Origin: a virus
Reading direction: 5' to 3' (one strand)
IMG/VR virus record: IMGVR_UViG_3300021131_000045
Span: 1 to 24,913 of that record
DNA: 24,913 bases
The stretch's first letter is position 1, and each line of letters starts with the position of its first letter. This document shows positions 19,738 through 24,329 of this stretch, piece by piece. The notes beneath the pieces were generated by a model. It did not search any database. It had not been told where the DNA came from and worked only from the letters and a program-made list of their open reading frames with translations. The position numbers and the translations under genes were made by a program.

Positions 19738-20262
19738 CTATTTAGCCTGTGTCAAGAACTTTATAACCAGGCTAAAATCTTTTTGAAACCTGTGATCAGC
19801 ACCATCGACAATAGTATATGGTGCACCAACTGCATGACACCTTGCAACTGACATAGTGTGATCGATTACATCATCATGCCTTGCAAAGAAGTATACATTG
19901 TTCTTGCTTATTGATGCATCTTCATACTTGTCGAGGATTTCTTGAGGAATACCATACCTTGCAAGAGAAAATTTGGGGCTCATGCAAGGATTGATAATGA
20001 CTGCACCTGCACCATATGTTTCTGCAAGACGGGTTGCTGTCCAACCACCAAGGGATGTACCAACAAAAACAAGTTCGATATCTTCATGCAGACGGTCGAT
20101 AAGGAGCATATCCACTTGATCTGTGATGTACTGATATGCTACATCAGGGTCAATGTCAGCATCAAATGAGTATGCATCCAAACCTGCATCCTTGAGCATT
20201 TGCAGCTTGTCAGAGTTAGCAGATGAAGCATATCCGTGGCAGTAGATGACAACTTTATTCAT
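19738..20262 (-). CDS. YqiA/YcfP-like alpha/beta-hydrolase (putative esterase)
   Basis: The start is the ATG at 20260-20262 (MNKVVIYCHGYASS), preceded by a strong GGAGG; the longer frame begins at a TTG overlapping that site. The 174-residue protein has the small-hydrolase signature: IYCHGYASSANSDK near the N-terminus, the nucleophile elbow GTSLGG, an acid in ARHDDVIDH and a terminal His in GADHRF, giving a plausible Ser-Asp-His triad. The length and the YCHGY...SDK opening match the YqiA/UPF0227 esterases. The substrate is unknown. It is transcribed from a consensus sigma70 promoter at 20285-20313 and lies upstream of gp32, suggesting early expression. Such enzymes are not standard T4 core genes, so it is an accessory gene probably taken from a bacterium. 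Confidence 0.82.
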   Translation of the reverse strand: MNKVVIYCHGYASSANSDKLQMLKDAGLDAYSFDADIDPDVAYQYITDQVDMLLIDRLHEDIELVFVGTSLGGWTATRLAETYGAGAVIINPCMSPKFSLARYGIPQEILDKYEDASISKNNVYFFARHDDVIDHTMSVARCHAVGAPYTIVDGADHRFQKDFSLVIKFLTQAK

Positions 20263-20284
20263 AAAATCCTCCAATCACAGTTAC

Positions 20285-22795: not shown

Positions 22796-23230
22796 TCAGA
22801 AGCTATACTTCAGACCAGCAGCAACGACATTCCCACGGAGATTACCGTGATTTTGAATGTCTATATTATGCATCACAGTTCCAACAACCGAAACGCTCTT
22901 GGTGATAGGATATGCAACAGCAAGACCACCACCTGCAACAAATCCATCAACACCGTGTTCCATATTAACCTTGGTAACACTCACGCGGGGACCAATGGTA
23001 AATGCACCAAATCGAAAATCTTTACCAACACTGGCACTATAAGTACGATAAAGATCCTTGGCATAACCAAGTTCACCTGCAACTGCAAGACCTGCAACTT
23101 CTGTGCCCACAGCAACACCAGTAAAGTCCTTATGGAAAGCATTATCATGCCCAGCGAGTACAGAAATATCTGCACCAAAGGCAACTGAAGATGCGAACAA
23201 CAGCGAAATACCAATCATAGACTTCTTCAT
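22796..23230 (-). CDS. Phage-encoded small outer-membrane beta-barrel protein with signal peptide
   Basis: The N-terminus MKKSMIGISLLFASSVAFGA is a textbook Sec signal peptide with cleavage expected after FGA. The mature ~124 residues alternate in beta-strand fashion with repeated Gly-rich turns (GVAVGTEVAGLAVAGELGYA, FRFGAFTIGPRVSVTKV, GFVAGGGLAVAYPI) and end in KYSF, the terminal Phe recognised by the BAM machinery. This predicts an 8-strand OmpA/Ail/Lom-size barrel. Such phage proteins can alter the host surface, for example by blocking superinfection, but no specific role is shown. It has a good ribosome-binding site (AAGGAG) and lies directly downstream of the tmRNA, with which it may share a promoter. 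It is not a T4 core gene, so it is probably acquired. Confidence 0.85.
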   Translation of the reverse strand: MKKSMIGISLLFASSVAFGADISVLAGHDNAFHKDFTGVAVGTEVAGLAVAGELGYAKDLYRTYSASVGKDFRFGAFTIGPRVSVTKVNMEHGVDGFVAGGGLAVAYPITKSVSVVGTVMHNIDIQNHGNLRGNVVAAGLKYSF

Positions 23231-23258
23231 AACAACTCCTTAAAGATTTAAGAAAATA

Positions 23259-23287
23259 CCAGGTGATTGGGTAAAAAGGACACCTGG
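23259..23287 (-). terminator. Hairpin at the 3' end of the tmRNA gene (processing site or terminator)
   Basis: The minus strand forms CCAGGTG / CACCTGG, 7 bp with a 15-nt loop, followed by TATTTTCTT. It lies 12-40 nt after the P5-like tag hairpin. It could be an intrinsic terminator or a structural helix of the tmRNA; the loop is long for a terminator. Confidence 0.5.
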
Positions 23288-23429
23288 CGAAACCCCTTGA
23301 GATTAGGCCGCTAGGGCGTAAACCTCGTAATTAGATGCGTTTGCATTTAAGTTTTTTTACTTTTTACGACTATCTGTGTCGGGTTGTCCACTCTGTTACT
23401 TATTGCCCAATCGAAACCATGGCAGGCCC
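23288..23429 (-). ncRNA. ssrA: tmRNA coding piece: D-domain, mRNA-like region and degradation tag
   Basis: It begins with G1 at 23429 (expected RNase P cut). GGGCCTG is followed by CCAT and the conserved D-domain GGTTTCGAT. A small hairpin CGAC-N7-GTCG at 23367-23381 occupies the place of pseudoknot PK1. An A-rich stretch leads to the tag frame at 23344-23303: Ala-Asn-Ala-Ser-Asn-Tyr-Glu-Val-Tyr-Ala-Leu-Ala-Ala then TAA. The last codons and stop lie in a hairpin (GAGGTT / AATCTC with an inner CGC / GCG) at 23299-23326, matching helix P5 of other tmRNAs. The exact 3' end is not known. Confidence 0.9.
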
Positions 23430-23567
23430 ATCAACAAGAAACTTTGGAATATACGGGCAGTGGATCATACTAACAACATTACCATTTTCATCAAGGTTTA
23501 CGATTGTTTCGTAATCTTTGATTTCATAGTATGTTCCTTTGTCGATCAACTCTTTATCATTATTCAT
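23400..23567 (-). CDS. 55-codon ORF within the tmRNA spacer, overlapping the tmRNA coding piece
   Basis: The ORF starts 12 nt after the tmRNA CCA with AGAGGAAATTT ahead of the ATG at 23565-23567, and ends TAA at 23400-23402, thirty nt inside the tmRNA coding piece. The product begins MNNDKELIDKGTYYEIKDYE, continues with IVNLDENGNVVSMIHCPYIP, and its last ~10 residues (GPAMVSIGQ) are encoded by the conserved acceptor/D-domain of the tmRNA. I do not recognise the protein. Length and amino-acid composition look coding, and a 55-codon open frame with a Shine-Dalgarno site is uncommon by chance at this AT content, but it is not proven to be translated. Cleavage of the tmRNA precursor would destroy this message. 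Confidence 0.5.
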   Translation of the reverse strand: MNNDKELIDKGTYYEIKDYETIVNLDENGNVVSMIHCPYIPKFLVDGPAMVSIGQ

Positions 23568-23578
23568 AAATTTCCTCT

Positions 23579-23643
23579 TGGTGGACCTGGCGGGAATCGA
23601 ACCCGCGTCTTGAACACCTTTCTCTTTGCTTCATACAACCATA
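23579..23643 (-). ncRNA. ssrA: tmRNA acceptor piece (T arm and 3' CCA)
   Basis: It spans the predicted transcription start (about 23643) to the CCA at 23579-23581. It contains the P2 strand TGTTCAA, then GAC, the T arm at 23590-23606, the acceptor strand CAGGTCC, discriminator A and CCA. The GACGCGGGTTC and TCCCGCCAG blocks closely match the 3' end of bacterial tmRNAs. With no 5' acceptor strand upstream it cannot be an ordinary tRNA. The 5' end GGTTGT could also pair with ACAACC at 23382-23387 of the coding piece. Confidence 0.9.
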
Positions 23644-23649
23644 AACAAC

Positions 23650-23678
23650 ATTGTACTGCAAATTTATTTAGTTGTCAA
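23650..23678 (-). promoter_or_regulatory. Sigma70 promoter of the permuted tmRNA
   Basis: TTGACA, 17 nt, TACAAT on the minus strand. The -35 region overlaps the last codons of the nuclease gene (stop at 23664-23666). Transcription should start near 23643, which gives an acceptor RNA of about 65 nt, in the size range of known two-piece tmRNAs. Confidence 0.85.
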
Positions 23679-24329
23679 GTTCTTTTTATAATATTGTATT
23701 GCTTCTACCAAACCATCAACATGATCTTCAGTTTTTTCAATGAAGATCAATGGCGCATGATTTTCTACTGCCATCATTATGACTAGTTGGTTGATAGGAA
23801 TTCCAATCATCTCCTGGTACATAATCGAATATGCAGTAGCTTGCCAGAAGTAATCCAAGATATCATCTCTCTGCTTGACTCTTTTAGAAGTCTTGAAGTC
23901 GATGACAGATAATACACCATTATATTCTGCAATACAGTCTACCCGACCTGCCATACCAAGAGTCTTTGACCAAAGGGCTTGTTCTTGATAATGAATATTG
24001 TTGATACCTGATTGAATCAGAGGCTTGATACCTAAAAACATTTCCATAGCGTCAGGCATTGCTTCACCACTCTTTTCATTATTCAGAAACTTCTCACAAA
24101 GAGTATGGACACCAGTACCTCGACTAGATGCTATTCTGGAAACTCTATTAGCCTCTTCTTCACCTACTCTTTTGCGCCATTCCATAATAGACTGTTTCTT
24201 CATGGCACCAAGAACAGTAGTTACTGAGGGTAACTTGGTGCCATCTTCAAGAGTGTAGTAACGCTTTCCATCAGGGAAAGTTTCAGACTTCAAATCATTT
24301 AGATTCTTTGGTGGGCAAAATGTGAACAT
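23664..24329 (-). CDS. RecB/Cas4/MGME1-like PD-(D/E)XK exonuclease
   Basis: A 221-residue nuclease. Motifs in order: LPSVTTVLGAM at ~34, RGTGVHTLCEKFLN with the conserved His at ~75, GMAGRVDCIAEYNGVLSVID with the metal-binding Asp of GRVD and the Asp of VIDFKTSKR (D-x-K core), and a C-terminal QATAYSIMYQEM (Q-x-x-x-Y motif). This set defines the single-strand exonucleases of the RecB-like/MGME1 group. Similar genes occur in T4-like aquatic phages. A role in DNA recombination, repair or degradation of host DNA is likely; which one is unclear. Its 3' end carries the tmRNA promoter. Confidence 0.87.
   Translation of the reverse strand: MFTFCPPKNLNDLKSETFPDGKRYYTLEDGTKLPSVTTVLGAMKKQSIMEWRKRVGEEEANRVSRIASSRGTGVHTLCEKFLNNEKSGEAMPDAMEMFLGIKPLIQSGINNIHYQEQALWSKTLGMAGRVDCIAEYNGVLSVIDFKTSKRVKQRDDILDYFWQATAYSIMYQEMIGIPINQLVIMMAVENHAPLIFIEKTEDHVDGLVEAIQYYKKNLTTK

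Follow-up and report, generated by a model that had tools for sequence, protein, structure and literature searches.

A permuted tmRNA of a T4-like phage with a predicted small-protein gene in its intervening segment

Introduction

That phages can carry permuted tmRNAs is already known. Melnitz and 53 two-piece phage tmRNA structures, mostly aquatic, were reported earlier (PMC9004378), and according to the accessible text of the 2025 tmRNA database paper, that collection contains 79 phage sequences (PMC11915505). Among sequence records, that of Pelagibacter phage Mosig annotates SsrA and that of Stenotrophomonas phage Marzo a tmRNA, and covariance-model matches to permuted tmRNA are found in Stenotrophomonas, Xanthomonas, Alcaligenes, Bordetella, Caulobacter, Synechococcus and Pelagibacter phages. 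Rfam permuted tmRNAs stand unannotated in the cultured-phage records ON615601 (L300), OQ427096 (L301), PQ569993 (L620), MF663786 (L622), MH588545 (L623) and KU682439 (L624), and in BUCT-ZZ01 a hypothetical CDS overlaps the permuted tmRNA.

The two pieces of such a tmRNA are separated in the gene by an intervening segment (IVS). The accessible text of the database paper describes one IVS with a tRNA-Ala gene and one with a repeat element, makes no mention of a protein gene in an IVS, and refers to homing-endonuclease genes in group I introns, tmRNA introns included (PMC11915505). We found no literature report of protein genes in tmRNA IVS; our coverage of older tmRNA papers is incomplete, so that this absence is not certain. 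Small proteins encoded in the IVS of a tmRNA precursor thus appear to be new.

Here we analyze a stretch of viral DNA of 24,913 nucleotides, referred to as the window, whose tmRNA gene has a long IVS. Its tmRNA is of two pieces, like those of Melnitz, Mosig and the Stenotrophomonas phages, and the order nuclease - hypothetical - SsrA - late transcription accessory in Mosig is T4-like, as in the neighborhood of the window's tmRNA. Unlike the window, the cultured phages that we examined have an IVS that is short or structured and without a convincing gene (the Mosig IVS is not delimited). The permuted tmRNA of betaproteobacteria (RF01850) has the covariance model, tag type, P2 and acceptor in common with the window; however, the three strongest permuted tmRNAs from 150 Burkholderiales genomes, after exclusion of RF04321 matches below the cut-off, span 205-223 nt as against 338 in the window, which leaves no room for an open reading frame (ORF). 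A tmRNA from Achromobacter (L310) has an IVS of 131 nt, but unlike the window no ORF within it. ORFs encoded in introns are similar in that a protein gene lies within a segment removed from a functional RNA; the IVS differs from introns in that there is neither splicing nor ligation, and its cargo is 24-65 amino acids long, with no endonuclease-like member.

Results

An initial annotation of the window, made from its letters alone, had proposed a two-piece permuted tmRNA with halves about 150 nt apart, and had named the Rfam permuted-tmRNA covariance models as the means of checking it. In that search, RF04321 (tmRNA_permuted) matched positions 23640-23303 of the minus strand with 124.9 bits (cut-off 47) over the complete model (1-213), and RF01850 (beta_tmRNA) matched with 93.6 bits against a gathering cut-off of 84, indicating the betaproteobacterial subtype. 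The 3′ half lies upstream of the 5′ half; that is, the order is permuted, in a match that scores above the RF04321 cut-off. ARAGORN found no tmRNA in the window, a miss that may be explained in part by the long spacer. Judged from sequence and predicted structure, the RNA encoded here belongs to the permuted, two-piece tmRNAs of the betaproteobacterial type, and the phage that carries it is T4-like.

All elements of this RNA are on the minus strand. The upstream piece (23579-23643), delimited by RF04321, RF01850 and covariation, carries the T arm, the 3′ acceptor strand, CCA and the 5′ strand of P2, i.e., the 3′ half of the tRNA-like domain. The downstream piece (23250-23429), delimited by the covariance model, carries the 5′ acceptor strand, the D-domain, the 3′ strand of P2 and the mRNA-like part; its 3′ end is placed approximately, on account of a hairpin read on the sequence at 23287-23259 (strands 23287-23281 and 23265-23259). 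The acceptor stem is formed by GGGCCTG (23429-23423) with CAGGTCC (23589-23583) and includes G3-U70; the T stem is GCGGG/CCCGC (23606-23602/23594-23590), ACCA is encoded at 23582-23579, and the D-domain reads GGTTTCGA (23418-23411). P2 pairs TGTTCAA (23616-23610) with TTGGGCA (23410-23404) in seven of seven positions. The tag reading frame (23303-23344), supported by the sequence and the covariance model, is GCA AAC GCA TCT AAT TAC GAG GTT TAC GCC CTA GCG GCC TAA, or (A)NASNYEVYALAA*, with a resume codon and a hydrophobic -ALAA end. The initial annotation had placed every one of these elements correctly, and the distance between the halves is 149 nt.

Upstream of the RNA, a promoter scan identified a -35 box, TTGACA (23673-23678), and, after a 17-nt spacer, a -10 box, TACAAT (23650-23655), both on the minus strand. 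Together the two boxes (23678-23650) match the sigma-70-like consensus at 11 of 12 positions, against a background of about two weaker sites per shuffled region. The spacing predicts a transcription start near 23643, 7 nt downstream of the -10 box, and the RNA ends proposed initially (23579, 23429 and 23643) fit this arrangement.

To this we can add covariation. Across 67 non-redundant viral permuted tmRNAs, the positions of P2 are paired in 58-67 of 67 sequences, with up to six pair types, and those of the T stem in 65-67; both results are independent of the search pattern, whereas the pairing of the acceptor was partly imposed by it and is weaker evidence. Variation among the relatives is thus compensated, as the initial annotation expected of a genuine tmRNA.

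The window encodes the T4-type proteins gp32, gp59 helicase loader, gp33, baseplate wedge, tail-tube cap, DNA end protector and tail tube. The upstream neighbor of the tmRNA is a phage exonuclease of the PD-(D/E)XK/Cas4-like type (23664-24329, minus strand; phrog_298, 1e-68) in conserved synteny, and relatives repeat the arrangement exonuclease - tmRNA - endolysin - gp33 - gp59 - gp32. The assignment of a permuted tmRNA to a T4-like phage therefore holds, but not as a novelty, since phage-borne ones had already been described. The capture of a betaproteobacterial-type tmRNA by the phage is plausible. The initial annotation also proposed a takeover of ribosome rescue during infection; no gene for SmpB was found in ten related contigs (five of 160-236 kb, several of them fragments), and such a putative takeover would therefore need host SmpB. 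Two other genes of the window, both on the minus strand, may be mentioned here: one for a UPF0227/YqiA-like alpha/beta hydrolase (19738-20274), without a PHROG match, and, directly downstream of the tmRNA, one for a small protein with a signal peptide (22796-23230) whose likeness to YfaZ/OMP_b-brl beta-barrels is weak and below the cut-off.

The initial annotation had treated the spacer between the halves as empty, and here it has to be revised. The IVS (149 nt, 23430-23578, minus strand, bounded by the covariance model), expected to be removed on maturation, opens with a Shine-Dalgarno sequence that starts right after CCA, (CCA)AGAGGAAATTTATG..., and carries a small gene of 55 codons plus stop (23400-23567, minus strand), which encodes MNNDKELIDKGTYYEIKDYETIVNLDENGNVVSMIHCPYIPKFLVDGPAMVSIGQ*. 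Its stop codon, at 23402-23400, lies within the downstream tmRNA piece; the last codons overlap the tRNA-like domain, and the ORF extends 30 nt, stop included, into the mature piece. A single RNA molecule therefore cannot be a message with the whole ORF and a finished tmRNA at once.

Four relatives of the encoded protein were found in viral contigs. L325 and L326, 89% identical to it, occupy the IVS of an alpha-type permuted tmRNA; L328 (the same locus as L297), about 40% identical, is in a beta-type IVS; and L327, 82% identical, is a free-standing gene with no tmRNA match. The dN/dS values are 0.22 (window/L325), 0.16 (window/L327) and 0.11 (L325/L327), so that selection acts on the amino-acid sequence. 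AlphaFold predicts a small beta protein with a mean pLDDT of 82, and of about 90 or more at residues 11-40; confidence collapses in the residues that are encoded by tmRNA sequence, i.e., the confident part stops where the tmRNA begins. Neither PHROG nor Pfam contains a family matching the protein, and a fold search with the model gave no convincing match (best E 0.45-1.0). On the reading frame, its homologs, dN/dS and the structural model, the ORF is very likely coding.

The two ends of the IVS pair with each other and thereby lengthen the acceptor stem. The 5′ strand, AGAGGAAATTT (23568-23578, minus strand), contains the Shine-Dalgarno sequence and pairs in 10 of 11 positions with the 3′ strand, AAGTTTCTTGT (23434-23444, minus strand), which is complementary to it. 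At 73 ORF-carrying loci, the pairing score of an IVS end with its own partner is 10.1, compared with 7.2 +/- 0.2 for swapped partners. IVS that lack an ORF also have the helix (9.9), which is thus not specific to ORF carriers. The probability that the Shine-Dalgarno sequence and start codon are unpaired is 0.52 in the nascent RNA and 0.21 in the full precursor, and is higher in the nascent form at 71 of the 73 loci. Part of this difference is trivial, since there are always fewer pairing partners in a shorter RNA.

To collect further examples, viral contigs were scanned with the pattern CCACCA-(gap)-GATGGG...GGNTTCGA, with acceptor and T-loop filters. Tandem tRNAs, which also matched in the first scan, were removed by the acceptor pairing filter. 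At least 335 distinct viral permuted tmRNAs were collected, those with an IVS below 120 nt being a sample, among the matches listed. Where the IVS is 120 nt or longer, an IVS-spanning ATG ORF is present in 77 of 104 cases, whereas 2.9 are expected from shuffled IVS; an earlier set gave 46 of 69 against 1.9. Below about 90 nt, the number of ORFs is close to the shuffle expectation, among the matches listed. Between these ranges, IVS of 92-107 nt carry either a conserved 31-residue CxxC peptide or membrane peptides with a single span and a length of 24-27 residues (L385, L399, L404, L405, L411, L453; L391, L407, L425, L468, L481), and these peptides end exactly at the UGA before the acceptor.

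The 73 ORF loci studied in detail share an architecture. The distance from CCA to the start codon is 7-22 nt, with a cluster at 7-15 nt and most often 10-12 nt. A Shine-Dalgarno motif is present in 47 of these IVS as against 3 of 58 others; some ORF-carrying IVS are without a clear one. The stop codon is at -4 in 29 loci, as the UGA of UGAU|GGG directly 5′ of the expected RNase P site, at -16 to -10 in 21, and within the mature RNA, at +24 or farther, in 23, the window included. In a larger set, the -4 stop is used by 44 of 119 ORFs, with UGA immediately before that site (for IVS below 120 nt, among the matches listed). T4-like neighbors are kept at 36 of the 73 loci.

Among the matches listed, the ORFs fall into at least about 50 mutually unrelated families, 21 of which have more than one member; 14 predicted single-span membrane peptides and some CxxC proteins are among them, and the encoded proteins are diverse, with lengths of 24-65 residues. 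In families other than that of the window, diverged pairs have dN/dS values mostly of 0.05-0.37, and a few near-identical pairs have uninformative values of 0.7-2.0. Where pairs have diverged, the ORFs are mostly under purifying selection. Several families occur also as ordinary free-standing genes; that of L277, for instance, is phrog_13558, present in Synechococcus and Stenotrophomonas phages. The possibility that the cargo is homing or mobile-element DNA was rejected, as no family is endonuclease-like.

Among cultured phages we found none that has an ORF in its IVS, and tblastn of 13 joined IVS proteins against such phages gave no match, in a procedure validated by a positive control. A scan of about 85,000 bacterial genomes, with a narrow pattern of 121-151 nt, returned 22 matches and two verified tmRNAs, L310 from Achromobacter and L314. 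The IVS ORF of L314 is homologous to the L216 family; its contig is within an Alteromonadales MAG, and we take it to be phage DNA binned there. Within the data searched, ORF-bearing IVS look phage-specific.

A comparison of IVS and tmRNA bodies, ignoring pairs with bodies cut by contig ends, shows that the IVS moves as a cassette between diverged tmRNA bodies. L291 and L298 have IVS that are 100% identical in bodies that are 68% identical, and the figures for L235 and L242 are 97% and 78%; in addition, the ORF family of the window is present in both alpha- and beta-type tmRNAs. Some long IVS without an ORF resemble structured RNA and recur almost unchanged in different bodies (L093, L098, L213, L226; L061 compared with L023/L051), e.g. 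AAAGTAATCACC...GATTACTTT. Non-coding IVS may therefore be exchanged cassettes as well, and not every long IVS is a socket for a gene. In L013 and L022/L028 the tRNA-like part and IVS are identical while the tag regions differ (ANDSKFALAA and AANDSRFALAA), suggesting recombination inside the mRNA-like half. Within the IVS at L085:1687-1850 and L218:1152-1400 there is sequence resembling the T arm of a tRNA, or an additional acceptor-like copy; these may be nested tRNA or tmRNA fragments.

Discussion

We consider it likely, on sequence grounds, that the tmRNA precursor doubles as an mRNA for small cargo proteins. We infer translation from the precursor, its timing, the processing steps and any function of the proteins as follows. 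Transcription from the promoter at 23678-23650 would give a single precursor, which would serve both as the source of the tmRNA and as an mRNA. The IVS would be a socket for a small gene, with the Shine-Dalgarno sequence right after CCA, then the ORF, and a stop at or just beyond the IVS end. Ribosomes would probably bind while the RNA is still being transcribed and the 3′ strand of the helix has yet to be made, and folded precursors would proceed to processing. There, RNase P and 3′ trimming would excise the IVS of 149 nt, so that both tmRNA pieces remain, joined by P2 and the acceptor stem. The simplest reading, we suggest, is that nascent precursors are translated and folded ones mature. 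A single locus would thus supply the phage with both a small protein and a tmRNA, with the cargo swapped between tmRNA genes.

Other explanations of the reading frames were weighed against this one. Chance, or a by-product of RNA structure in the IVS, is extremely improbable as their origin: spurious frames near the shuffle expectation do occur in IVS shorter than 90 nt, among the matches listed, but the 77 frames against 2.9 expected in IVS of at least 120 nt, dN/dS mostly well below 1 and the free-standing homologs contradict it. Nor does the tmRNA look like a decaying copy with inserted genes, in which the small protein alone would matter. The acceptor, the T arm, P2 and the tag frame have all stayed intact, and covariation is seen in P2, in the T stem and in the IVS helix as well; even with a host tmRNA that would be available, and with an ORF that in the window overlaps the tRNA-like domain, we regard decay as very unlikely.

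The ORF could also be a cis-acting leader, such that its translation regulates the folding or processing of the precursor and the peptide is immaterial. In its favor, the Shine-Dalgarno sequence is part of the helix that prolongs the acceptor stem, so that ribosomes loading there must compete with the folding of the tRNA-like domain, and 23 of 73 ORFs stop inside the mature tmRNA. Yet the peptides, unrelated among some 50 families (among the matches listed), are conserved within families, and several exist without a tmRNA, for which a pure leader has no need; a leader is in our estimate unlikely. Possible but rather unlikely is a self-policing form of the dual-use precursor, in which each molecule is either translated or matured, and cleavage turns ORFs that stop beyond the RNase P site, such as that of the window, into a nonstop message whose product is tagged by the new tmRNA. 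If so, tmRNA output would shut down its own cargo; the arfA nonstop mRNA, which lacks a stop codon and is policed by tmRNA (PMC10107115), may be a parallel for these ORFs.

If the precursor indeed serves as an mRNA, tmRNA spacers, so far treated as waste, would act in many phage genomes as a socket for conserved small proteins, with a ribosome-binding site built into the very helix that holds the tmRNA precursor together. Such a dual locus for mRNA and structural RNA would be a natural system in which to study the competition of translation with RNA processing over a single transcript. The spacers are also a reservoir of unannotated phage small proteins, with about 50 families among the matches listed, some being single-membrane-span peptides of 24-27 residues. 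The free-standing copy of the window ORF (L327:807-960) has at its end TTGATGGGGATG, which by eye resembles a leftover 5′ acceptor strand of a tmRNA; this gene may be a former tmRNA resident that has since departed.
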